In this document: positions 49,969 to 64,000 of the stretch, one piece after another
How positions within the stretch are numbered: the stretch's first letter is position 1
Layout of the letters: each line of letters opens with the position of its first letter
NCBI GenBank assembly: GCA_015064725.1
Contig: SVRQ01000001.1
Coordinates: forward strand, 62,001 to 126,000
Length of the DNA stretch: 64,000 bases
Reading direction: 5' to 3'
Source of the DNA: Oscillospiraceae bacterium
GTDB lineage: Bacteria > Bacillota > Clostridia > Oscillospirales > CAG-272
Notes under the pieces: generated by a model
The model's input: only the letters and a program-made list of their open reading frames with translations
The model's database searches: none
Told to the model about the DNA's origin: nothing
Made by a program: the position numbers and the translations under genes

Positions 49969-50718
49969 TTACTTGCTCTGTGCAAAGAGCCAATCCACAA
50001 GGCCCTCTGTCTTGTACGCGGGGATCCAGCTATCGTGCCATACGCCGGGGAAATACGTTGCTTTCATCTTCGTACCACCTGCCGCTTTGATAGCCTCTTC
50101 CATATCCTTTGTGCCTTTTGCGGGAACGGTATTATCTCTTTCGCCGTGGAAAGCCCAGATAGGCATATTTACAAGTCTGTCCGCCTTGGAGGGTATGCCG
50201 GAGCCGCAAACGGGGATAGCCGCCGCGAAAACGTCCGATCTGCGTGTTATAAGCTCCCATGTGCCGTAGCCGCCCATAGAGATACCTGCCGCATAAACGC
50301 GGGATGTGTCAACCTTGCCGCTGTCAAGGAATTTCTGCAATATATCCATAGCCGCCGCAAGACCCATCGTGGGGTTTTCCGTAAGCTCGCGAGAGCCTGT
50401 GTCCCATTTATGGTTTACGGGAACCCATTCGTATTTTACGTTGCAGGGGCATTGGGGAGCCACGATAATGCAATCGTCCCTCTCTATAACCATATTTATA
50501 AGTCTGTTTTCTTTTTGCAGAACGCGGATCTGAAGCTCGTTATCCGTGCCGCATTCGCCGTGACCGTGGAGGAAGAAAAGCATAGGATATTTCGCGCCGT
50601 CCGCTTCGTTATAAGAGGAAGGATAGTGGACTCTGTAAGGGAGCGTAAATTTTTCTCCCGTTTCACCGTCAGTATATTCATATGCAAACCTTAACATTTT
50701 ATCAACATCAACCATCAT
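49969..50718 (-). CDS. Alpha/beta-hydrolase (carboxylesterase/dienelactone-hydrolase-like)
   Basis: LFFLHGHGECG oxyanion region, GISMGGYG nucleophile elbow, WHDSW His; no signal peptide. Confidence 0.85.
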   Translation of the reverse strand: MMVDVDKMLRFAYEYTDGETGEKFTLPYRVHYPSSYNEADGAKYPMLFFLHGHGECGTDNELQIRVLQKENRLINMVIERDDCIIVAPQCPCNVKYEWVPVNHKWDTGSRELTENPTMGLAAAMDILQKFLDSGKVDTSRVYAAGISMGGYGTWELITRRSDVFAAAIPVCGSGIPSKADRLVNMPIWAFHGERDNTVPAKGTKDMEEAIKAAGGTKMKATYFPGVWHDSWIPAYKTEGLVDWLFAQSK

Positions 50719-50755
50719 TATATCTCCTTTATACGTAAAATATTTCTGTAATTAT

Positions 50756-50784
50756 ATTTTACACTTTATTCCGCGGTTTGTCAA
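50756..50784 (-). promoter_or_regulatory. Promoter of esterase gene
   Basis: TTGACA (50784-50779), 17 nt, TAAAAT (50761-50756). Confidence 0.8.
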
Positions 50785-50897
50785 TATGCGCAAAAACACA
50801 AAAAACGGGCAGCGCCCGCCTCCGAACGCTTGCCTTTCGCGGCTTTTCATCCGCAGAAAAAAACTGCTATGTTACCATAGCAGTTTTTCTGTCTTAA

Positions 50898-52472
50898 TTA
50901 TTTTGCGCTGTCTGCGATCTTATCTGCATCGAAAGCGTAGTTGTAGATATTGAATTCGTCAATAGCACCAACGAAACGCTGGAACGTTGTATCGTTGATC
51001 TTACCGCCGATGTAAAGATCGTATGCGGATGTGTAATCCTGCGCTGTCAAGGGCTTGCCTGCAACACCGTCGATGTATGTTGTGATAGTACCCTTTTCAG
51101 CATCCTGAACGATGAGGATCGTGTGCCAATCCGTATCCAATACATTGTTGTTTTCATCCTTTGCAAGGTCGCTCTTGATAGCGAAGTTGCCTGCCTGACC
51201 GCCCCAATGGATAAACGTCTTGTTGAACCAGATGCCGTACCAGCCTGTGCCGCTTGCACCCTTCTGGAACATGCAGGGCCAGCCGGATTTATCTTCTGTC
51301 TGGAAAAGACCTGCGTCAGCCTTGTAAACGATCTCTATTGTGAAGTTCTGGTTCTTCTTGAGGTCAAGAAGATCGTTGTCTGCAATAGTAAGAAGGTCGT
51401 TTTCGCTGTCGAATATAGCTGCGTTGCCGTTCTTGCCTTCGCCAACCGTTACTGTGCCGGAAATAACTGCTTCAAGACCGGAAGCGCTGTCGATAAACTT
51501 ACCGTCTTTGATCTCGTTGAAATCGAATTTTACGATAGCTTTTTCTTCATCGGGCTTTTCAACCTTGATACCTGTGATAGCCTGATAATCAAGAGCTGCG
51601 GAATAGATCTTGAATTCATCGATGCAGCCGTAGAACTGCTGTGTAACGTCCGCGCCCTTATCTCTGCACTTACCGCCGATCCAAAGATCGAAATCGGAAG
51701 TGTAATCTACAGCGGCAACAGTTGCGCCTGCAAGACCGTCAACGTATGTAGAAACAACACCGTCCTTCTGAACGATAGTTACGAGCTGCCAATTTGTGTT
51801 TACCTTGGACGTAGCAAAGATGTTGCCTGCGTCGCCGCCCCAAGCAATACCGTTTTTGGGAACCCAAACGCCGTACCAACCGTCGCCCTTTTCACCCTTC
51901 TGGAATACGCAGGGCCAGCTGGAGTTGGAAAGGTTGTAAAGGTTTGCATCGGGCTTGTACCAGAACTGGATAGTAAATTCATCGCTCGTTGTGAAGTTGA
52001 GCGCATCGCTGTTCTTTATAGTAAGAAGGTCGCCGTCGTTTGCAAATTCAGCTGCATCGCCAAAACCATCGGGACCGTTAGCAATGTTAACTCTCTTTGT
52101 AGCCTGAGCATCGTGACCATTGCCTGTAATATCCTTGATGATATTTGTGTCAAGATCCCATTCGTCAAAGTCGAGGTGCATTACAAGAGAGCCCTCGTAT
52201 TTTGCCAAGGGATTTGCTTCTGTAGTTGCAACAGTTGTAGCAACAGTTGTAGCCGTAGTAGCTGTTGTACCGACTGTTGTAGCCGTTGTGCCTACTGTAG
52301 GAACAGTTGTTGTCGCAGCGGTTGTAGCCGTTGTGTTTGTTGTTGTAGTTGCTTCTGTTGTAGCATCTGTTGTTTTTGCAGCTTCGGTCGTTGTTTCGCC
52401 GCCACCGCCGCAAGCAGCAACCATAAGCATAACCATTACGATGGTCAACATAAGCGCGATCAATCTTTTCAT
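50898..52472 (-). CDS. Lipoprotein with Thr-rich linker and two LamG/concanavalin-like domains
   Basis: Start MKRLIALMLTIVMVMLMVAACGGGG (52472); two repeats each containing FTIQFWYKPDA/WYGVWVPKNGIAWGGDAGN and DLWIGGK..FYGCIDEFKIY. Confidence 0.85.
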   Translation of the reverse strand: MKRLIALMLTIVMVMLMVAACGGGGETTTEAAKTTDATTEATTTTNTTATTAATTTVPTVGTTATTVGTTATTATTVATTVATTEANPLAKYEGSLVMHLDFDEWDLDTNIIKDITGNGHDAQATKRVNIANGPDGFGDAAEFANDGDLLTIKNSDALNFTTSDEFTIQFWYKPDANLYNLSNSSWPCVFQKGEKGDGWYGVWVPKNGIAWGGDAGNIFATSKVNTNWQLVTIVQKDGVVSTYVDGLAGATVAAVDYTSDFDLWIGGKCRDKGADVTQQFYGCIDEFKIYSAALDYQAITGIKVEKPDEEKAIVKFDFNEIKDGKFIDSASGLEAVISGTVTVGEGKNGNAAIFDSENDLLTIADNDLLDLKKNQNFTIEIVYKADAGLFQTEDKSGWPCMFQKGASGTGWYGIWFNKTFIHWGGQAGNFAIKSDLAKDENNNVLDTDWHTILIVQDAEKGTITTYIDGVAGKPLTAQDYTSAYDLYIGGKINDTTFQRFVGAIDEFNIYNYAFDADKIADSAK

Positions 52473-52521
52473 TGTGATCATCCTCCAAAAATTTTTTATG
52501 AGAAAATTCTCCGTTATATTT

Positions 52522-52550
52522 ATTTTATACCAATTAAGCCGTATTGTCAA
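52522..52550 (-). promoter_or_regulatory. Promoter of LamG lipoprotein
   Basis: TTGACA (52550-52545), 17 nt, TAAAAT (52527-52522). Confidence 0.8.
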
Positions 52551-52596
52551 GAAAATACAAAAAACTGCTATGAAAACATAGCAGTTTTTTAATATC

Positions 52597-54276
52597 TTAG
52601 TCAGCTTTTGTCTGCTGGAGGAGCCACTGTGCGGCTGTGAGTCCGTCCGCATTCTTTGCGTTATAAGCATTGTTCCAAACGGAGTGTCCAACACCGGGGA
52701 AATACGTTGCGTGGATCTTTGTGCCGCCTTCCGCTTTGATAGCCGCTTCCATATCTTTGGAACCGTCGGGCCATACCGTGGGGTCTGTAAGACCGTGGAA
52801 CGTCCAGATATCGATGTTAACAAGGTCTTTTGCCGAGCTTACGATACCTGCGCCGCATACGGGTACAGCAGCCGCAAAGAGATCGGGTCTGCGTGCGATA
52901 AGCTCCCAAGTGCCGCAACCGCCCATAGAGATACCGCCGATGTAAATTCTGTTTTCGTCAACTCTGTTCTTTTCGATAAAGTCAACAAGAAGAGCCTCTG
53001 CCGCCTGCAAGCCGAGAGTGTAAGTAATTTCTTCAAGTGCGCCTTTGCGGGAGTGCAAACCGCCTGCCGAGCTGTCCCACTGATGAACACCGGGGGTACC
53101 GGAGCCGGATGCTACCCATTCCGTTACGTTTGTAGCACCGTCGCAAGTGGTCTGGGGAGCGAGGATGATACAGTTATCCATTTCCGCAATATCGTCAAGA
53201 AGCTTATTGGCACCAAATACCTGGAGCTGCTTTGCGTTATCCGTGCCGCATTCGCCGTGACCGTGGAGGAAGAAGAGAACGGGGTATTCTTTATCTGTAT
53301 TTTCCTTATAATCCGTGGGGAAATATACTCTGTAAGGAAGTGTGATGGATTTGCCGTCCTTATCCGTATATGTAAAGGAACCTGCATCTGCCGCGTGAAT
53401 AGATTTTGCAGTTACTTCAAAAGCGTAATCGTAGATCTTGAAATCGTCGATAGCACCGTTGAACTGAGCTGTAGCGATGTCTGCCGCATCGGAGCTGTTT
53501 CTGCCGCCGATGTACATAGGACCTGCGGACGTGTAGTTCTTAGAGGATGTTTCGTTAACAAGCTTACCGTCGAGGTACATAAAGAGCGCACCGTTCTTGT
53601 GAACTACGGTGATGTGGTGCCAAACGTACTTGGAGTAGATACTGCCTATCTTGTAGTTGCCTGTGTCGCCGCCCCAGCAAACGCCCTGGTTTGCAGAATC
53701 GTTAGTGCCGAGCCATACACCGTACCAACCGTTGTTCTGAGAGCCCTTGGAGAAGAGGTTTTCCCAACCGCTTGCATCTTTATCGAGCATATACCAGAAG
53801 TCAACAGTAAATTCATCGCTCGTTGTGAAGTTAAGTCTTTCGTCGTTAGCGATAGTAAGGAAATCGAATACGTTTGTTGTGCCGAAGCGGATAGCGCTGC
53901 CGCCCGTGGGGCTTGTCATATATTCGGGGTTGCCCGTGACAGTTGCATCAAGTCCGCCGCCAACAACGTTTTTAATAACGTTGCCTTCGATGTTTTCAGG
54001 CTCGAAGTCAAGGTGAAGGATAGGATCCTTATCGCCCTGAACAGGACCTGTGGGGTCGATATCGGCAACCTTGGGAGCCGCCGTTGTTTTTACCGTTGTA
54101 GCCAAAGTAGTAGCCTCCGTAGCTTTTGTTGTTACAGCGGTTGTAGCCGCCGCAGTTGTTGTGTCTGTTGTTATGGGAGCAGTAGTAGTTGCATCGCCGC
54201 CACCGCCGCAGGCTGCCACTGCAAGTATTGTCATAGCCAATACGATGAGAAGGGATATAACTCTTTTCATTTGCAA
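52597..54276 (-). CDS. Lipoprotein: Thr-rich linker + LamG domain + esterase domain
   Basis: MKRVISLLIVLAMTILAVAACGGGG; LamG block; YPVLFFLHGHGECGTDN...GISMGGCGTWELIARRPDLFAAAVPVCGAG. Confidence 0.85.
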   Translation of the reverse strand: MQMKRVISLLIVLAMTILAVAACGGGGDATTTAPITTDTTTAAATTAVTTKATEATTLATTVKTTAAPKVADIDPTGPVQGDKDPILHLDFEPENIEGNVIKNVVGGGLDATVTGNPEYMTSPTGGSAIRFGTTNVFDFLTIANDERLNFTTSDEFTVDFWYMLDKDASGWENLFSKGSQNNGWYGVWLGTNDSANQGVCWGGDTGNYKIGSIYSKYVWHHITVVHKNGALFMYLDGKLVNETSSKNYTSAGPMYIGGRNSSDAADIATAQFNGAIDDFKIYDYAFEVTAKSIHAADAGSFTYTDKDGKSITLPYRVYFPTDYKENTDKEYPVLFFLHGHGECGTDNAKQLQVFGANKLLDDIAEMDNCIILAPQTTCDGATNVTEWVASGSGTPGVHQWDSSAGGLHSRKGALEEITYTLGLQAAEALLVDFIEKNRVDENRIYIGGISMGGCGTWELIARRPDLFAAAVPVCGAGIVSSAKDLVNIDIWTFHGLTDPTVWPDGSKDMEAAIKAEGGTKIHATYFPGVGHSVWNNAYNAKNADGLTAAQWLLQQTKAD

Positions 54277-54338: not shown

Positions 54339-54382
54339 CATAAAATTAGCATAAGCGTGAGTAATAGGTGAAAATTCACATA

Positions 54383-54413
54383 CAAAAAGGAACCCTGTTG
54401 GGTTCCTTTTTAT
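54383..54413 (-). terminator. Terminator downstream of lipoprotein 54425-55801
   Basis: aaaaaggaaccctgttgggttccttttt. Confidence 0.85.
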
Positions 54414-54424
54414 ATTAAATTTAA

Positions 54425-55801
54425 TTATGCTTCGGGTTCGGGATATTCAGGGGAAGCCTTGAAATCTTCATAGTTGAGGTATGTGCCGAAAACGAGAGAA
54501 CCGGGTGTGTTGTCTGTTACGAATACTGTATAAGTATCTGTTGCAACGTCATAGTAGTATGTGTATGTGAGAGCTTCAACTGTTTCGCCTTCTGCAAGAG
54601 CTGCTGTAGCTGCATCCCAGTATTCCTTAACGGGAGAATCAGCAATATCTTCGCCCCAAAGTTTGCAGTTTACAACTTCTTCATAGTAGCCAACGAATTC
54701 GTCATATTTAGCAATAGCTGCTTCGAGTTCTTTCTGAGCTTTTGCTTTTTCAACTACGGACAAATCTTCCTTGTTAGCGGCATTCTTTTTCTGGTGGAGA
54801 TACCAAGTGGGAACTGCTTCGTAACGAGCTGTGTCGGGGTCGCCGTTATTGAGTGTGGAGCCGGAGGGGTTGTAAGCCTTCCAAGCAGCAGCTGTGGAGC
54901 CCTGACCGTCTGCGTTTGTTTCGTCTTCAGCAGCAGCGATGTTGCCAACTGTGTTTGTCTTAAGACCGAATACGCTGTAGTCTTCTGTAGCTTCCTTGAG
55001 CTCGTCGCCAAGGTATGTAACGTAAACGAACTTAACTTTGAGTTCAGCAGCGTTAACTTCTTTGTCACCCATCATAGCTGTGATAGCATCGTCTGTAACG
55101 TCGATAATGCTCATTGTGCCGAAGTTACCAACTGTTGCAGCATAGTCTGCAAGAGCTGCGTTTACATTGTCAACTTCGATGTGGTTTACGATATAAGTAA
55201 CGTCATCGAAGTAGTAAGCATAAGTACCGGACTTAACGCCTGTCATAAGAGCTGTATCCGTGAAAGAGTCTTTTTTGCCGAATCTGTTTACGGAAGCATA
55301 GTTCATAGCCTTACCGAGATCTTTTACAACTGTTGTTGCACCGTCTTTTGTTTCAACGAGGTAAAGGTGACCTGTTGTTACGTTAGCAACTTCAACTGTT
55401 TCAAGTGTAGCAACGTTAACTGCTTCCGCTGTTTCTACTGTTTTGTAGAGTGCGGGGATCATAACGTCTGCAGTAACCGTACGATACTGGTTAACTACGT
55501 CCTGAGTGTTATCGATAGCAAGGGGAATATAAACTACAGCCTGTGCGGGAGCTTCGGGCTTGGGAGCTTCTGTTGTTGTAGCAACTGTTGTTGCCTGAGT
55601 AGCTTCTGTTGTAGCCTTTGTAGCTTCTGTTGTAGCGTTGCCGGCTGTTGTAGCGTTGCCCGCTGTTGTTGTTTTGCCCTCTGTTGTTACGTCTGTAGCT
55701 TTTGTGCCTTCTGTTGTTGTTTCTGTTTCGCCGCAAGCAACGAACATACAAGCAACCATTACAAGTGCAAGAACAAGAGCAAGAATTTTCTTAATGTTCA
55801 T
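54425..55801 (-). CDS. Lipoprotein, Thr-rich linker, unknown C-terminal module (paralogue of 56001-57362)
   Basis: MNIKKILALVLALVMVACMFVACGE; shares long identical stretches with the neighbour, e.g. VGNFGTMSIIDVTDDAITAMMGDKEVNAAEL. Confidence 0.8.
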   Translation of the reverse strand: MNIKKILALVLALVMVACMFVACGETETTTEGTKATDVTTEGKTTTAGNATTAGNATTEATKATTEATQATTVATTTEAPKPEAPAQAVVYIPLAIDNTQDVVNQYRTVTADVMIPALYKTVETAEAVNVATLETVEVANVTTGHLYLVETKDGATTVVKDLGKAMNYASVNRFGKKDSFTDTALMTGVKSGTYAYYFDDVTYIVNHIEVDNVNAALADYAATVGNFGTMSIIDVTDDAITAMMGDKEVNAAELKVKFVYVTYLGDELKEATEDYSVFGLKTNTVGNIAAAEDETNADGQGSTAAAWKAYNPSGSTLNNGDPDTARYEAVPTWYLHQKKNAANKEDLSVVEKAKAQKELEAAIAKYDEFVGYYEEVVNCKLWGEDIADSPVKEYWDAATAALAEGETVEALTYTYYYDVATDTYTVFVTDNTPGSLVFGTYLNYEDFKASPEYPEPEA

Positions 55802-55851
55802 GGTGAAATTCCTCCATAATTTTTTAGAAATCTTATTTCTTCGTTATACTT

Positions 55852-55880
55852 ATTCTATCGCATACAGCCTTTTTTGTCAA
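55852..55880 (-). promoter_or_regulatory. Promoter of lipoprotein 54425-55801
   Basis: TTGACA (55880-55875), 17 nt, TAGAAT (55857-55852). Confidence 0.8.
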
Positions 55881-55959
55881 CATAAGAGAGTGCTGTAAAT
55901 TGATTTTTGACTTTTTGGACAAATTTCATCATCTTAAACTATTATCTTTGACCAAACAA

Positions 55960-55988
55960 AAAAGGGACCCGATTGGGTCCCTTTTTGA
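55960..55988 (-). terminator. Terminator downstream of lipoprotein 56001-57362
   Basis: aaaaaagggacccgattgggtcccttttt. Confidence 0.85.
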
Positions 55989-56000
55989 TATTAAATTTAA

Positions 56001-57362
56001 TTATGCTTCGGGATATTCAGGGGAAGCCTTGAAATCAGCATAGTTGAGGTATGTGCCGTAAACGAGAGAACCGGGTGTGTTGTCTGTTACGAATACAACG
56101 TATGTGTCTGTTGCAACATCATAGAAGTATGTGTATGTAAGAGATTCAACTGTTTCGCCTTCTGCAAGAGCTGCTGTAGCTGCATCCCAGTATTCCTTAA
56201 CGGGAGAATCAGAGATATCATCGCCCCAGAGGTTGCAGTTTACAACTTCTTCATAATAGCCAACGAATTCTTCGTATTTAGCCATAGCTGCATCGAATTC
56301 CTTCTGAGCTTTTGCTTTTTCAACTACGGACAAGCCTTCCTTGTTGATAGCAGCCTTCTTAGCGTTGAGCCACCATGTGGGGAAGTATTCGTTCTTGGAA
56401 TCAGCAAGCTCTGTAACGAGCAAAGAGCCGGATGTGTTGTATTCTTTCCAAGCAGCGAGTGTGGAGCCCTGACCGTCTGCGTTTGTTTCGTCTTCAGCAG
56501 CTGTGATGTTGCCGAGTGTGTTTGTCTTAAGACCGAAGATGCTGTAATCTTCTGTAGCTTCGTTGATAGCATCGCCAAGGTATGTCATATAAACGAACTT
56601 AACGTTGAGTTCAGCAGCGTTAACTTCTTTGTCGCCCATCATAGCTGTGATAGCATCATCTGTAACGTCGATAATGCTCATTGTGCCGAAGTTACCAACT
56701 GTTGTAGCGTAGTCTGCAAGAGCAGCATTTACCTTTTCGGAATCGATAGCGTTCATAAGATATACGCAGTCATCGAAGTAGTAAGCCCAGTAACCTGTCT
56801 TAACGCCTGTCATAAGAGCTGTATCTGTCCAACCGTTCTTTTTGCCCTGTCTGTTGGAGTTAACGTATGTGATAGCTCTGCCGAGGTCAGTAACAACTGT
56901 GCCGTCAGCTTTAACGAGGTAGAGGTGACCTCTTGTTACGTTAGCAACTGCAACTGTTTCGCCTGTTACGATGTTGATAGCATCAACTGTTTCAGCTGTT
57001 TCGTAAAGAGCTTCGTACATAGCGTCGGAAACGCTGTCATAGTTGCATACAACTTCTGTGTATTCAACTTCTGTGGGAACGTAAACAACTACTTCTTCAG
57101 CGCCCTGGGGTTTGGGAGCTTCTGTTGTTGTAGCCTGTGTAGCCTGTGTTGTAGCTTTTGTAGCTTCTGTTGTAGCTGTTGTAGCATCTGTTTTGCCTGC
57201 TGTTGTAGCATCTGTGGCATCTGTTTTGCCCGCTGTTGTTGCATCGCCTTCTGTTGTTACGTTGTTTACAGTTGTTGTTTCGCCTTCGCCGCCGCAAGCA
57301 GCAACCATACCAACTACCATAACGAGTGCAAGAACAAGAGCAAGAATTTTCTTAATGTTCAT
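56001..57362 (-). CDS. Lipoprotein, Thr-rich linker, unknown C-terminal module (paralogue)
   Basis: MNIKKILALVLALVMVVGMVAACGGEGETTT lipobox; see neighbour. Confidence 0.8.
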   Translation of the reverse strand: MNIKKILALVLALVMVVGMVAACGGEGETTTVNNVTTEGDATTAGKTDATDATTAGKTDATTATTEATKATTQATQATTTEAPKPQGAEEVVVYVPTEVEYTEVVCNYDSVSDAMYEALYETAETVDAINIVTGETVAVANVTRGHLYLVKADGTVVTDLGRAITYVNSNRQGKKNGWTDTALMTGVKTGYWAYYFDDCVYLMNAIDSEKVNAALADYATTVGNFGTMSIIDVTDDAITAMMGDKEVNAAELNVKFVYMTYLGDAINEATEDYSIFGLKTNTLGNITAAEDETNADGQGSTLAAWKEYNTSGSLLVTELADSKNEYFPTWWLNAKKAAINKEGLSVVEKAKAQKEFDAAMAKYEEFVGYYEEVVNCNLWGDDISDSPVKEYWDAATAALAEGETVESLTYTYFYDVATDTYVVFVTDNTPGSLVYGTYLNYADFKASPEYPEA

Positions 57363-57419
57363 CGGGTGTATCCTCCGTAAATTTTATTTGAGAGTTTATG
57401 TTACTCTCGGTTTACTTTT

Positions 57420-57448
57420 ATTTTACTGCAAATCGCTTTTTTTGTCAA
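57420..57448 (-). promoter_or_regulatory. Promoter of lipoprotein 56001-57362
   Basis: TTGACA (57448-57443), 17 nt, TAAAAT (57425-57420). Confidence 0.8.
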
Positions 57449-57528
57449 CATTTCGTTTAAAACTTATTGATGTTTGTGGTTTTTGTTAAAAAGCTTCAGC
57501 TAAATTGAACATATTGAACAAAACTTTT

Positions 57529-58218
57529 TTAGTCTTTTGCGCCCAAAAAATATTTTTGTGTACGTGCGCCGAGGATTATGACGGCATACGTCAAAAGAGC
57601 TATGGCAAGCTTCACGCCGAGTGCCGCAAAATCCTCTCCCTCGTAAAAACCGCCGAACGTGAACGTTACCGTATCGAGCAGAGCAAGCGCGCCGCCGACG
57701 ATAAGCGCGGCAACGCTCGGCACGCTGAACGGCGCAATATACGGGCGCATAAAGCGGGATTCTCTTTTGGTAAGTTTGAAAAACGCGAACGTAAGCGCGC
57801 ATACGGCAAGGGCGACCACGGCTTTTATACTTGCCGCAGCGGCATTTATATAGTCCTCATAAAGATATTCCGCCAGTATCATCTCCGTTGAGATGGGAAT
57901 AAGAAAAGCGGAGCGCACAAAAAATTGCACGAACGGCAAAAGAGAAGCGTGGAACATAGCGATAACGCCGGAGAAAACGGAAGCGCCCGCCTTTTTCTGT
58001 GAAAGAGCAAAAGCAAAACCGCCAACGGCGAAAAACATTGCAAACTCTCCGGCATAAGCCGCAAGATTATAAAATAACACGCCCATTCCGTCCAGCCACG
58101 CAGGAAGATACTCATAGTTGACCGTGGCTACGGAAAATATAACGGTAAACATACTTACAAAAAACAGCGGACAAAGGAAAAGCCCGAAAATATGATATAA
58201 AACAGCTTTATTTTTCAA
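57529..58218 (-). CDS. Hypothetical multi-TM membrane protein
   Basis: About six hydrophobic segments. Confidence 0.65.
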   Translation of the reverse strand: MKNKAVLYHIFGLFLCPLFFVSMFTVIFSVATVNYEYLPAWLDGMGVLFYNLAAYAGEFAMFFAVGGFAFALSQKKAGASVFSGVIAMFHASLLPFVQFFVRSAFLIPISTEMILAEYLYEDYINAAAASIKAVVALAVCALTFAFFKLTKRESRFMRPYIAPFSVPSVAALIVGGALALLDTVTFTFGGFYEGEDFAALGVKLAIALLTYAVIILGARTQKYFLGAKD

Positions 58219-58350
58219 AATGACCTCCGAAAATAATTATTACACAATAAGCATACCACAAAAGCCGTGGAAATGGAAACAAAATTTTGTAAATTTTTTA
58301 TTATTTACGCCATAAGGTTTGACTTTACTGCTCTGTGACTATATAATATA

Positions 58351-59004
58351 ATGGAAAGAAACAAATTTCAACATTTTTTGAAAGCGAATAATATGAAAAA
58401 AATAAAAATATACAGCCCGATCAAGCGGCTATGCGATATTGTCCTTTCCGCCGCCGCGCTGATCGTCCTATTCCCTTTTTTTATCGTGCTTTGTCTTATT
58501 TGCGCGATAGATACAAAAGCCTCCCCTCTGTTTTTGCAGGAGCGCATCGGCAAAGGCTCAAAGCCGTTTAAAATTATAAAGTTCCGTACAATGAAAAAGA
58601 GCGCCCCTGCCCTCACGCCCGCGCGCGACATAAGCCACCCGGAGGAATACGTTTCCCGGCTGGGTGCTTTTCTTCGTAAAAGCGGCGCGGACGAGCTGCC
58701 GCAGCTTATAAATATCCTTATCGGTCAAATGAGCTTTGTCGGGCCGCGTCCGCTTATGAAAACAGAAGCCGCACTCCACCGTGTCCGCGCCTCTCTCGGT
58801 GTTTACACCGTCCGCCCCGGACTTACGGGGCTTGCACAGATTAAATCCGATACAATCAATTCCCACGAAGAAAAAGCAAAGCTCGACGCAGAATATGTAC
58901 AAAAAATGTCCCTCTTTTATGACGTAAAGCTTCTCTTCCTTACCGCCACACTTTTCTTGGGCGGCAAGCACATTGACGAACACTTCAACTCCCCGCTTTC
59001 TTGA
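58351..59004 (+). CDS. Bacterial sugar transferase (initiating glycosylphosphotransferase, EpsL/WecA-like)
   Basis: KRLCDIVLSAAALIVLFPFFIVL; PLFLQERIGKGSKPFKIIKFRTM; SGADELPQLINILIGQMSFVGPRPL; RPGLTGLAQI. True start may be 58393. Confidence 0.93.
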   Translation: MERNKFQHFLKANNMKKIKIYSPIKRLCDIVLSAAALIVLFPFFIVLCLICAIDTKASPLFLQERIGKGSKPFKIIKFRTMKKSAPALTPARDISHPEEYVSRLGAFLRKSGADELPQLINILIGQMSFVGPRPLMKTEAALHRVRASLGVYTVRPGLTGLAQIKSDTINSHEEKAKLDAEYVQKMSLFYDVKLLFLTATLFLGGKHIDEHFNSPLS

Positions 59005-59172
59005 AAGAAAGCTTGGCAAAGAACTTTACTCGAATATCCCAATTCCCTTTTTATTTAATTGCTCTTTTTATTTCCTTGTAGGGACCGGCGTCCCCGACGG
59101 TCCTAAAACCCCAATACATACCAACACATAATCCCCTCCAAGATGGATATACTATCCTTGGAGGGGATTTTT

Positions 59173-59337
59173 ATGTTGCCAAAAATAAGGAACGGCGTAT
59201 TTCTCATATACGCCGTTCTTATCTCATTTTTCATTTCGCTTCTTGCGGGGGCGGCGGTAGAAGCGCGCCAAAACGCGCTCTCACCTCTTGATTACATTTC
59301 AATGAAAACTATATCAGAGGTTTTGGAAGAAAACTAA
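59173..59337 (+). CDS. Small single-TM protein
   Basis: MLPKIRNGVFLIYAVLISFFISLLAGAAVEARQNAL...; SD GGAGGGG lies in a hairpin just upstream. Confidence 0.5.
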   Translation: MLPKIRNGVFLIYAVLISFFISLLAGAAVEARQNALSPLDYISMKTISEVLEEN

Positions 59338-59364
59338 GCCTTCTCCGGAGGGGAAGGCTTTGAC

Positions 59365-59397
59365 AAAAAAAGAAACTCCCGAAGGAGTTTCTTTTTT
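59365..59397. terminator. Bidirectional terminator
   Basis: aaaaaaagaaactcccgaaggagtttcttttttt. Confidence 0.9.
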
Positions 59398-59410
59398 TAT
59401 ATTACATCAA

Positions 59411-62400
59411 TTATTTAGTAACGATAGAGTTGTTAAATACGATGTATGTTTCTGTTGCGTAGTCGTAGTAGTATGTGAATTCAGGATATACTACGTCTGC
59501 TTCAGCAACACCGGATGTGATCTGCTGTACCTTGTACTGGTAGAGCTTGGAGTTCTGAACGTCTGCTGTCCAGTAGATATCGTTCATGATATCGTTGAAG
59601 TTTTCGTTAGCTTCTGCATAGAACTTCTTGCACTTTTCAACCATAGCGAATGCAGCGTCGATTTCAGCAGCGGACTTACCAGCAACGAGAGCTGTGTTGT
59701 AAGCTTCTGTGAAGTAGTCAAGAACTGCAGCAGGTGTGTACTCAGCCATCCATTCGTATGTCATCTGGAGCCACTGAGGAACGAGTGCCTTGTAAGAGTT
59801 GTGTGTAGCATATCTCTGCCATACGTACTTGTTCCAGCTGGGGAAGTTAGCCGCAGCCCAGTCACCGTAGAGACCGGATTCGGAGATGTTTCTAGGCAAG
59901 CCACCCTTTTCAGCTCTGAACATTGCGTCAGCCATGTGCTTGGGAAGGTCGTGAGCAACGTCCTGATCTTCTGCTACGTAGAAGTTGTTACCTTCGTAGT
60001 CGAAGTATGTGAACTGGAACTTGAGGTTTGTGATATCAACGTTTGTATTGGAGTTAACAGTAGCGATGATAGATGTAGGTGTTACGTCTGTGATTGTCAT
60101 CTTACCGAAGTAACCGAGGTTTGTGCCTTCAGCGAGCTTGGAGATGTCAATGTTGTAGTTTGTTTCGTTCATTACGGATACTGTGTAATCCTGGTTGTTA
60201 GCAGTATATACCCAGTAGTTGCCGTCGTACTTACCATTTGCGTGGAGGTAGCACCAGCCTGTGCCTGTTACATATACGGAGCCACGAGAGTATTCGTCAG
60301 AAGACTGACCGGACTTGGAAAGACCGAGACGTGTGAATTCCTGTGTACCGTAGATAGGACCGAGATCCTGGAGGATTGCGTTGTTTGTAAGGTCGATGAG
60401 GTAGAAGTGACCTGCGGGAATTGTTACGTTAGCTGTGCCTGTAGCAGAGTGAACGTAGTTAGCGCCGTGATTCCATGTGGAGTAGTAGTATCTAAGTGTA
60501 CCAACCTTAGCGCCTGTTGTGATGTTAAGAGCCTGGTAAGAAGATTCTACGTAGTAGATATCGTCGCCTGTCTTAACGTATGCTGTTGTGATAGAAGAAG
60601 CAGGGAGGTAAACAACTGCCTTTGTTGTATCAACAACAACTTCTGTGGGATCCTGAGGCTGAGAAGGTGTAGGATCGGAGTTCTTGCCGGCTGTAGCGTA
60701 TGCACCGAATACAACGAGGTATGTTACATAGCCCTTAGCAGGATCGAGGTAGTAGTCATAAGCTGCAACTGCGAGTTCGCTGCCGGAAGCCTTGAGAGCG
60801 CCGAATGTTGTTTCTGTGTATGTGTATGTGAGTTTGTCGAGAGCACCAACCTGAAGTTCAGAAGGTGTAGCGATTACGATTACTGTATCGTCCTTAACGT
60901 TGATTGTTTCAGCACCCTTAACTTCGAGTCTGTACCAACCGGGAACGTACTTGTAACCAGCGTCTTTAGCGTGTGCCTTGTATTCTGTGTTAGAGGGAAG
61001 TGCGGACTTGATGTAAGATTTTGTGAGTTCGGGGATGTTGCCTGCGAGAGCGTCTGTTGTTACGTCTGTTGTTGCAACAGCTTCTGCTTCGAGTGTTTCA
61101 ACTACGAGTGTGCCGTCAGCCTTTGTCTGATATACAAGACCCTTGTAGTCAAGGATTGTGTAAACAGTGTTGTTAGCGTCAACGTAGTATCTTGTGTATG
61201 TGCAGCCTGCGTTGAGGTTGCCGATGTAACCGTTAGCGTCTGTGTAGAAGAGGCCGTAACCCATTGTTGTGTCAAGAGCGCCTGTTGTTGCATCGTAGTA
61301 CTTGTGTGTCTGGTATGCAGCGATCTGAGCGTATGTGGGGTTAGTGATTACGTCATATGTGCTTGTTACAGGGTTTACTGTTGTGGAGTAAACTGTGAAA
61401 GGAACGAGAACCTTTGTTGCGCCTGTAGCGAATGTGTTGCCATCATATACAACCTGGAGTGTGTAAGACTTTGTGAAGTCAACAGCGAGCTTGGAAACCT
61501 GGCTGTACTTAACCTGGTTGATACCGGAGGGAACTTTTACGTAAGCGTACTTTGTAGCAACGAGGTTGTTGTTAGCATCGTACTGAGGATATGCTTCAAC
61601 TACCCACTTGTAGTTTGTAGCTGTGTAAGCATTGTAGTAGTTTGTAACTTCGGGAACGAGAACTGTAGGAGCCAAAGCAGCTGTCTGTGTTGTATATGTA
61701 AGGCCTGCTGCTGTGTATGTGTAAGGAGCATCGAAGATGCGGTTTGTGATGTCACCGCTGATTTCAGCAGCTGTCCATGTATTTGTCCAGTTACCAGCAA
61801 CGATGTAGTTGTTTGTATCGTTCTTAACTTCAACGTAGAGAACGTTTGTAGGAGCTGCAACGTAGTTTACGCCGTAGATAACAGCTTCGTTACCTGCAAG
61901 AACCTTGTGGTAGAAGATCTTGTTGATGAGTGCGAGTGTAGCGTCGTCGTATGCACCGGAGAGGGATGCGATTACGTCAACTGTTGTTGTGCCCTTGTCA
62001 CCAGCGAGTGTAACCTTGAACTGGTTAGCGTTTGCACCAGCCTGAACCTTTGTTACGAAACCTTCTGTTTCTGTAGCGGAGTCAAGGAGGTCATAACCGG
62101 ACATTGTGAGAACGTTAGCATATTCGTCAACAGCAACTGTAACTGTTCTCTGGAGGAGCCATGTAGGCTTGTTAGCTTCTGTTGCGGGGAAGTGGTCAGC
62201 TGTCTGGCCGTTGGAGTACTGAGACTTGTAACCGTTGATGAGGTATGTGTACCAAGAAGCAGCACCGCAGTTTGTATCAACTGTAACCTTGTTTGTGGAT
62301 TCGCCAACTGCATACTGGAATGTCTTGTTAATAGCAATGGAAGCACCATTAGCGTTTTCAAGAGCGCTGTATGCAGGGATCGTAACTACTGTTGCTGTAC

Positions 62401-64000
62401 CGTCAGCAGCTGTGATTGTCATCTTGTAGTAGTTAGTAACAGCACCGCCGAGTGTTTCAACGTTTGTTACCATACCTGTAACTGTCTTGATAGTGTCGCC
62501 TGTTTCACCGTCGAGAAGAGCAACCTGCTTGTAGTAAGGAAGGTTTTCAACAGGGTTCATAAGGAGCATTGTAAGACCGTTGTTTGCAGCCTTGAGTGTG
62601 GAGTAACCAGCAGCAGAAGAAGCGATTACTTTTTCGTCAACGTATGTTTCGCCCTGACGAAGAGGTGTCTTGTTGAAGAGGAAGTTGGAAGCATCTGCAT
62701 TAACAGATGTAGCAGCGAGGTTGAGACCTACTTTAGAGTAGTCAGGAACTTCATTGCCGTTTGCATCAAGCTTTGTAGCAACTGTCTTGAATTTAACAGA
62801 ATCTCTGTTCTGTGTAAGGATATCGTAGTCACCGTCGCCGTCTGTATCAGCGAATGTGAACTTCATCTGACCTTCAGCGATGTTGAGGATGTCTTCGTAG
62901 ATGGAAGCGATAGCGCCCTTAGCGATTTCCTTGCCGTCTACGTCGTAAACGTAGATTACGTTATCTGTAGCGGAAGCTTCGATACCTGCGGAAACCATTG
63001 TCTTGCCTGTTGTTGTATCAACTGTAGCGAGAACGTAGTCTGTGCCGAGGAAGCTGATCTTGTAAACTGTCTGCTTTGTTGTTGTGCCGGGAACAGTTCT
63101 GGATTCTGTGGATTTTGTGATAGCGAGTACTTCATCGTAGTATGCGGGAAGTACAGGTGTCTTGTTGAGTTTCTGGCCTGCAGCAGCAGGGTTGTGAGCG
63201 AGTTCGTTGTAGAGGTGGTTGTACTTGTAACCGCCGTTGGAACCAGCCCAGCCGTATCTGTAAACGAGGAAGGAGTCAACGATTATTGTGTTGTTGAGCT
63301 CGATGGATGTGAGGTTTGTAGCGTTGTAAGGAAGAACGCCGTTTACGGATTCTGCATAAGCGTTGCCGTTGTAGGAGATCTTAACCATTGTACCAACTGT
63401 GAAGTCTCTTACGGAAACGTATGTGTTTGTGGAGTTAGCTGTACCAACGTTGTCTGTCTTTCTTTCGTTAGCGTCAACGATCTCTGCCTTAGCCTGAGAT
63501 TTGTTGAGTGTAAGTGTAACGAATGTGTTAGCAGCAACCTGAACTTCGATAACGAGTTCGTTAACTTCGTCAGTGTTAGCGCCGTTTACTTTAGAAACTA
63601 CACCGTAGTATGTACGGTTGATCTTAGCGTTGAGCTTGTTGAGCTTTTCAGCGATTGTACCTGCAACGCCGTTTGCACCCTTGTCAAATTCAGAGGATGT
63701 CTTAGCTTTGGAAGCAGCGTTCCAGATGAGGTAAGCAGCTTCGCCGTATGTAAGAGCAGCACCGTCTGCGAAGGATGTGCAGTTTGCTTTGTAAACGTCA
63801 TCGATAACGTTTACGTCTTCCTGCTGTGCCCACCACATATATGCAGCGTATTCAGTTGTATCAAATGTATCTTTGAATTCCTGAACGTTCTTGAGGTATG
63901 TGGAAGAAAGGCTACCCTTGTCGCCGAATCTGGAGAGGAGGCGGATTACGATAACCGCGCCCTGGCCGAGCTTAAGAGCATCGTCAGGTCCGAACTGGTA
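59411..64000 (-). CDS. Giant secreted/surface protein with SLH-like N-terminal repeats, 5' partial (frame open to window edge)
   Basis: Upstream in-frame reading gives YQFGPDDALKLGQGAVIVIRLLSRFGDKGSLSSTYLKNVQEFKDTFDTTEYAAYMWWAQQEDVN..., then CTSFADGAALTYGEAAYLIWNAASK: SLH-like. More than 1500 aa visible. Confidence 0.8.
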   Translation of the reverse strand, partial: YQFGPDDALKLGQGAVIVIRLLSRFGDKGSLSSTYLKNVQEFKDTFDTTEYAAYMWWAQQEDVNVIDDVYKANCTSFADGAALTYGEAAYLIWNAASKAKTSSEFDKGANGVAGTIAEKLNKLNAKINRTYYGVVSKVNGANTDEVNELVIEVQVAANTFVTLTLNKSQAKAEIVDANERKTDNVGTANSTNTYVSVRDFTVGTMVKISYNGNAYAESVNGVLPYNATNLTSIELNNTIIVDSFLVYRYGWAGSNGGYKYNHLYNELAHNPAAAGQKLNKTPVLPAYYDEVLAITKSTESRTVPGTTTKQTVYKISFLGTDYVLATVDTTTGKTMVSAGIEASATDNVIYVYDVDGKEIAKGAIASIYEDILNIAEGQMKFTFADTDGDGDYDILTQNRDSVKFKTVATKLDANGNEVPDYSKVGLNLAATSVNADASNFLFNKTPLRQGETYVDEKVIASSAAGYSTLKAANNGLTMLLMNPVENLPYYKQVALLDGETGDTIKTVTGMVTNVETLGGAVTNYYKMTITAADGTATVVTIPAYSALENANGASIAINKTFQYAVGESTNKVTVDTNCGAASWYTYLINGYKSQYSNGQTADHFPATEANKPTWLLQRTVTVAVDEYANVLTMSGYDLLDSATETEGFVTKVQAGANANQFKVTLAGDKGTTTVDVIASLSGAYDDATLALINKIFYHKVLAGNEAVIYGVNYVAAPTNVLYVEVKNDTNNYIVAGNWTNTWTAAEISGDITNRIFDAPYTYTAAGLTYTTQTAALAPTVLVPEVTNYYNAYTATNYKWVVEAYPQYDANNNLVATKYAYVKVPSGINQVKYSQVSKLAVDFTKSYTLQVVYDGNTFATGATKVLVPFTVYSTTVNPVTSTYDVITNPTYAQIAAYQTHKYYDATTGALDTTMGYGLFYTDANGYIGNLNAGCTYTRYYVDANNTVYTILDYKGLVYQTKADGTLVVETLEAEAVATTDVTTDALAGNIPELTKSYIKSALPSNTEYKAHAKDAGYKYVPGWYRLEVKGAETINVKDDTVIVIATPSELQVGALDKLTYTYTETTFGALKASGSELAVAAYDYYLDPAKGYVTYLVVFGAYATAGKNSDPTPSQPQDPTEVVVDTTKAVVYLPASSITTAYVKTGDDIYYVESSYQALNITTGAKVGTLRYYYSTWNHGANYVHSATGTANVTIPAGHFYLIDLTNNAILQDLGPIYGTQEFTRLGLSKSGQSSDEYSRGSVYVTGTGWCYLHANGKYDGNYWVYTANNQDYTVSVMNETNYNIDISKLAEGTNLGYFGKMTITDVTPTSIIATVNSNTNVDITNLKFQFTYFDYEGNNFYVAEDQDVAHDLPKHMADAMFRAEKGGLPRNISESGLYGDWAAANFPSWNKYVWQRYATHNSYKALVPQWLQMTYEWMAEYTPAAVLDYFTEAYNTALVAGKSAAEIDAAFAMVEKCKKFYAEANENFNDIMNDIYWTADVQNSKLYQYKVQQITSGVAEADVVYPEFTYYYDYATETYIVFNNSIVTK

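Follow-up and report, generated by a model that had tools for sequence, protein, structure and literature searches.

In a 64,000-nucleotide stretch of an Oscillospiraceae bacterium genome (hereafter the window; G000:C4:62001-126000, from a 1.6 Mb assembly that is 70% complete), the C-terminus of a giant SLH-family surface protein and two Thr-linker lipoproteins encoded beside it share one homologous module, and of this we are practically certain (Table 1). The domain is real and undescribed, it is present on the SLH giant and repeatedly on lipoproteins, and the pairing of the two is recurrent, not obligatory.

We compared the C-terminal 412 amino acids (aa) of the giant with the two lipoproteins by direct BLASTP, with compositional adjustment switched on and with the linkers lying outside the aligned part. 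The giant matched lipoprotein 1 with an E value of 1e-11 (25% identity over 342 aa) and lipoprotein 2 with an E value of 6e-13 (~25% identity over about 340 aa). Moreover, a lipoprotein of a congener (P0006 of G005) matched both window lipoprotein 1 (E 1.1e-28) and the C-terminus of the window giant (E 7.9e-57), thereby closing the chain of homology. Between themselves, the window lipoproteins share 75% identity; the DNA of their modules (genes at 54425-57362) is 81% identical, in patches of 0.57 to 0.97, the pattern that a tandem duplication with later partial gene conversion would be expected to leave.

The first-pass annotation of this DNA had aligned the giant's end with both lipoproteins by eye and placed each copy behind a low-complexity linker. 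Both observations hold: the motifs that it quoted lie where it put them, and linkers can be read in all three proteins. A profile-profile comparison, the kind of check that it proposed, was less clear-cut: the two window lipoproteins compared with four giants of other genera, a shallow and fully independent test, gave a weak match (E 0.0067, probability 6%). Consequently, the link to other genera depends on intermediates from the window's own genus.

Surface proteins rich in Thr, Ala and Tyr might also come to resemble one another by composition, without common descent, and both the low identity within the window (about 25%) and the weakness of the most independent of the small profile comparisons would be in keeping with this. 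Nevertheless, we regard this explanation as hardly credible and reject chance composition as the cause of the resemblance, since the BLASTP matches were obtained with composition adjusted, which argues against a low-complexity artefact, and since the G005 lipoprotein joins both window partners. The predicted order of strands and helices, described below, also speaks against it.

By sequence and by predicted structure, the module is a compact, undescribed domain. Searches of Pfam, NCBIfam and PDB sequences with the module, the lipoproteins and the window giant returned nothing significant. One of 16 module sequences touched DUF5105 (PF17118) at a sub-significant E value of 0.0089, and we did not accept this family as a relative on the strength of a single member. 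AlphaFold2, supplied with 16 own or locus sequences, modelled the 254-aa module of the G010 giant with confidence (predicted local distance difference test, pLDDT, 90.4; predicted template modelling score, pTM, 0.85) as a beta-rich part followed by a helical hairpin, with a beta hairpin closing the fold. The model of the window lipoprotein 1 module was less confident (73.9, pTM 0.76), and its C-terminal half is predicted to follow the same succession of strands and helices as the G010 giant module. Foldseek found no PDB or viral structure matching the G010 model, and no PDB structure matching the lipoprotein 1 model, at E 0.001 or better. An aromatic motif, Y.NG.FWG..NSP.Y.Y, is conserved across the modules.

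No relative emerged when the genome contigs were scanned with the window module alone; an alignment of four giants, used as the query afterwards, did find relatives. Profile searches of 398 genomes from the family detected the module in 16, spread over five genera, and among 298 genomes sampled from the order (members of the family included) it was matched only in the window's own genus. Most matches form the C-terminus of a giant of 1500-2000 aa with a shared leader (MKNFKR...LALVLA), and the named relatives that bear the module are metagenome-assembled genomes of uncultured Clostridia from the gut of water deer, roe deer, goat and horse. The giant gene adjoins rny in G000, G005, G127 and G213. 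The module is shortened or eroded in G162 and G217 and split by an insertion in G175, and giants of other genera exist that match only the N-terminal part of the giant.

Lipoproteins bearing the module occur in four of the five genera (g1, g6, g22 and g91). Within the window's genus they are found, beyond the window pair, in G005, G001, G002 and G003, and outside it in G010 (g6), G213 (g22; L131:6316-7260) and G101 (g91). The G101 lipoprotein is divided over two contigs (L132, L100; C364 and C52) whose ends share 33 identical residues, and the division is an assembly break, not a broken gene. In G005 the gene order is rny, giant (1615 aa) and lipoprotein (438 aa), with the module on both proteins. 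Spacing varies: giant and lipoprotein genes are neighbours in G000 and G005, lie ~33 kb from each other in G010 and sit on different contigs in G213 and G101. Separately, contig C7 of G002 (L053:2-3610) encodes a protein, its start lying off the contig, in which many CSVCGE-type repeats precede two copies of the module in tandem, with a long coiled-coil insertion.

How the lipoproteins came by the module can be read from a tree of the module sequences. The lipoprotein modules of G010 (98/98), G101 (100/99) and G213 (91/83) each grouped with the giant of their own genome, and that of G005 grouped with the G005 and G000 giants (100/99), while the window's two lipoproteins formed an old branch of their own. 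When the halves of the module were taken separately, the own-genome pairing was recovered in both halves for G010 and G101 and in the C-terminal half for G213. An approximately unbiased (AU) test rejected one clade of all lipoproteins plus the tandem-module protein (p 4.5e-7), as well as a clade of the four lipoproteins of G005, G010, G101 and G213 (p 9e-24), and with them a single ancestral lipoprotein. Given this grouping and these rejections, the module has very probably been copied repeatedly, or gene conversion has kept the copies alike.

The G010 pair is under constraint at the protein level. Between its two modules, amino acid identity is 69% and third-position identity 44%, with a nonsynonymous divergence (dN) of 0.25 and a saturated synonymous divergence (dS); the giants of two species in the same genus, for comparison, are 45% identical in amino acids at a third-position identity of 0.42. 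The high amino acid identity despite saturated dS means that this pair is not a fresh copy and has been kept alike by selection, and its dN/dS below 0.1 amounts to strong purifying selection. This constraint is that of one genome; elsewhere the giant and lipoprotein modules are 51% (G005), 40% (G101), 39% (G213) and 23% (window) identical.

Repeated copying need not imply a shared function. A recombination-prone or mobile end of a surface protein could have been fused again and again to generic leaders, leaving copies that are functionally unrelated or that provide antigen-like diversity. The leader and Thr linker are indeed generic in the window genome (residues 1-88 alone give many matches), the module is patchily distributed, the identity of the two window lipoprotein genes varies along their length in a conversion-like manner, and in G002 a double module stands behind CSVCGE repeats. 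We nonetheless consider shuffling of this kind rather unlikely, as the same module has been placed on the same kind of anchor repeatedly, in four genera, and the old G010 pair is under strong purifying selection.

The nature of the giant bears on what the module might do. Although its own match to PF00395 (SLH) is marginal (E 0.098), its repeats being degenerate, homologous giants carry clear PF00395 repeats near the N-terminus (G031, 2.5e-12; G213, 9.1e-12; G010, 2.3e-12), and the window giant is homologous to that of G031 over residues 1-821 (E 1.5e-12). Thus, the earlier label of 'SLH-like' is borderline for the window protein itself and plain in its relatives. The window genome also encodes CsaB (TIGR03609, 228.6 bits against an NCBIfam cut-off of 213.1), and the pyruvylating enzyme family PF04230 was present in nine of nine genomes tested. 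No Omp85 scored above cut-off in six genomes, which is consistent with a monoderm cell and leaves an outer-membrane location unsupported. By these sequence criteria, the giant belongs to the SLH family of wall-anchored surface proteins; it is a probable S-layer protein, and its assembly into an S-layer is inferred. Most scanned genomes also encode one further, small SLH protein (~230 aa, one to three repeats; G000:C7:17680-17811 in the window genome).

We tentatively propose that the giant and lipoprotein copies bind the same partner and thereby tie an S-layer-type layer to the membrane. Genomes of the family have, very probably, repeatedly placed a copy of the module behind a generic lipoprotein leader and a Thr-rich linker, so that it is held at the cell membrane too. 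In our proposal the module would be a binding domain, and its copies on giant and lipoprotein would recognise the same partner, which may be a glycan of the envelope or a neighbour in the lattice, perhaps the module itself. Through the wall, the lipoprotein would in this way dock or seed the S-layer-type layer, or tie it to the membrane. The linker, ~50-70 aa in the window and in G005 and longer in the lipoproteins of G010 and G213, could reach roughly 18-25 nm if extended. A bolder form of the proposal, which we regard as distinctly unlikely, sees in the module a self- or co-recognising envelope domain of a new kind, with SLH giant and lipoprotein binding each other or one shared node through matched copies; this would form a dedicated link from membrane to S-layer through the wall of a monoderm bacterium, re-invented in several genera as the giant's own domain was copied.

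Several observations weigh against a shared partner. Modules of giant and lipoprotein that are 23-25% identical in the window are too distant for close matching, and the genes are not always neighbours across genomes and are not co-transcribed in the window. Moreover, six genomes that are 91-97% complete (G031, G131, G175, G217, G116 and G127) have a giant and no detected lipoprotein copy, and three congeners (G001, G002 and G003) have lipoprotein modules and no detected giant. Neither protein therefore strictly needs the other, and strict dependence is rejected. Accordingly, the envelope system of matched modules suggested by the first-pass annotation survives as a pairing that recurs in four genera, made or maintained separately, and not as a fixed system; likewise, the module does recur in other genomes, without the constant co-localisation with SLH proteins that the annotation had proposed to look for.

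The three congeners without a detected giant are in keeping with another reading, in which the module is an outward-facing domain that binds a ligand or substrate, for example a carbohydrate; giant and lipoprotein would then display one lectin-like function at two depths, without touching each other. The conserved aromatic motif is in line with this, as are the nearby lipoproteins with concanavalin-like LamG domains and esterase-like hydrolases, with which the locus may serve polysaccharide use; on the other hand, LamG lipoproteins are common on surfaces and their proximity may be incidental, and Pfam shows no carbohydrate-binding family in the module, nor is there a fold match. Separate display of a ligand-binding domain, though doubtful when taken by itself, is nearly as likely as linking through a shared partner.

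Table 1. Giant and lipoprotein genes of the window, with their modules, linker and candidate expression signals
Feature	Position	Strand	Basis
Giant SLH-family surface protein	59411..64000	-	open reading frame on contig; PF00395 matches in homologues; secretion signal MKNFKRSLALVLALVMIVGTFASVSA
Giant C-terminal module, 403 aa	59414-60622	-	AVVYLP... to ...IVFNNSIVTK, stop at 59411; BLASTP with both lipoproteins, profile matches
Pro/Asp-rich linker preceding giant module (KNSDPTPSQPQDPTEVVVDTT)	60623..60690	-	read from translation; approximate boundaries
Lipoprotein 2, 453 aa	56001..57362	-	lipobox VAAC, then 67-aa Thr-rich linker, then module
Lipoprotein 2 module	56004-57092	-	BLASTP with giant C-terminus
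Lipoprotein 1, 458 aa	54425..55801	-	lipobox at Cys 23 (alternatively Cys 18), then ~65-aa Thr-rich linker, then module
Lipoprotein 1 module	54428-55540	-	BLASTP with giant C-terminus; structure model
Lipoprotein 2 promoter (putative), near-consensus TTGACA-17-TAAAAT	57420..57448	-	11/12 matches; consensus match only
Lipoprotein 1 promoter (putative), near-consensus TTGACA-17-TAGAAT	55852..55880	-	11/12 matches; consensus match only
Terminator (putative) 3' of lipoprotein 2	55959..55986	-	12-pair stem, then T run
Terminator (putative) 3' of lipoprotein 1	54380..54415	-	16-pair stem

The giant gene begins 378 nt past the window edge, so that its first 126 codons lie outside; read on its own contig, it spans window coordinates 59411 to 64378 and encodes 1655 aa. 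Directly upstream lies rny (RNase Y, named from sequence). In both window lipoproteins the signal peptide ends at the lipobox Cys (VAAC/VAC at residue 23), as it does at VSAC in G005, and a lipobox was also read in the lipoproteins of G010, G213 and G101. Because each lipoprotein gene has a near-consensus promoter and a terminator of its own, the two are separate and probably well-expressed units, and the hypothesis of one operon in the window was rejected.

Between the lipoproteins and the giant lie genes for a sugar transferase (PF02397; 58351-59004) and for a membrane protein of 229 aa that belongs to no known family (57529-58218). A sugar transferase and a membrane protein of this size (229-232 aa) also adjoin the G005 pair (L048:12264-13764), and membrane proteins of similar look occur near the giants of G213 and G171. 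On the other side of the lipoproteins, 49969-54276 encodes two Thr-linker lipoproteins with LamG domains, one of them fused to an esterase/DLH-type hydrolase, plus a separate hydrolase; a 771-aa relative adjoins the G005 pair. An open frame of 1697 aa with a Cys/Val-rich translation runs antisense to nearly the entire giant gene (59360-64000, plus strand) and is most likely a by-product of codon usage.

SLH-domain S-layer proteins are exemplified by Sap and EA1 of Bacillus. Like S-layer and S-layer-associated proteins with PF00395, the giant is secreted, acidic and poor in Cys, with SLH-type repeats at the N-terminus and a beta-rich body, and its genome encodes a CsaB-type pyruvyl transferase; unlike them, it ends in an undescribed module, and its own SLH repeats are degenerate. 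The general idea of matched modules on different surface anchors recalls the cohesin/dockerin scaffolds on SLH anchors of cellulosomes, except that both anchors here carry one and the same type of domain; no significant Pfam match to cohesin, dockerin or any other family was found in the modules, the window lipoproteins or the window giant. The two lipoproteins share their signal peptide, lipobox Cys and Thr-rich linker with the generic Thr-linker lipoproteins of the window genome, yet their cargo is the giant's C-terminal module and not an enzyme or a solute-binding protein. Searches of an open-access library, judged from titles and abstracts, turned up no account of such a module paired on giant and lipoprotein.

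Whether or not the copies share a partner, the module establishes a domain family that is new, occurs in uncultured Clostridia of the herbivore gut and has a confidently predicted structure with no PDB match. With recombinant modules of the G010 and G005 pairs, the question of a shared partner can be tested directly. If the copies do share one, they would join the outer protein layer of a Gram-positive-type cell to its membrane at the molecular level, and adding one domain repeatedly to a second anchor would be a simple way for evolution to arrive at such a link.

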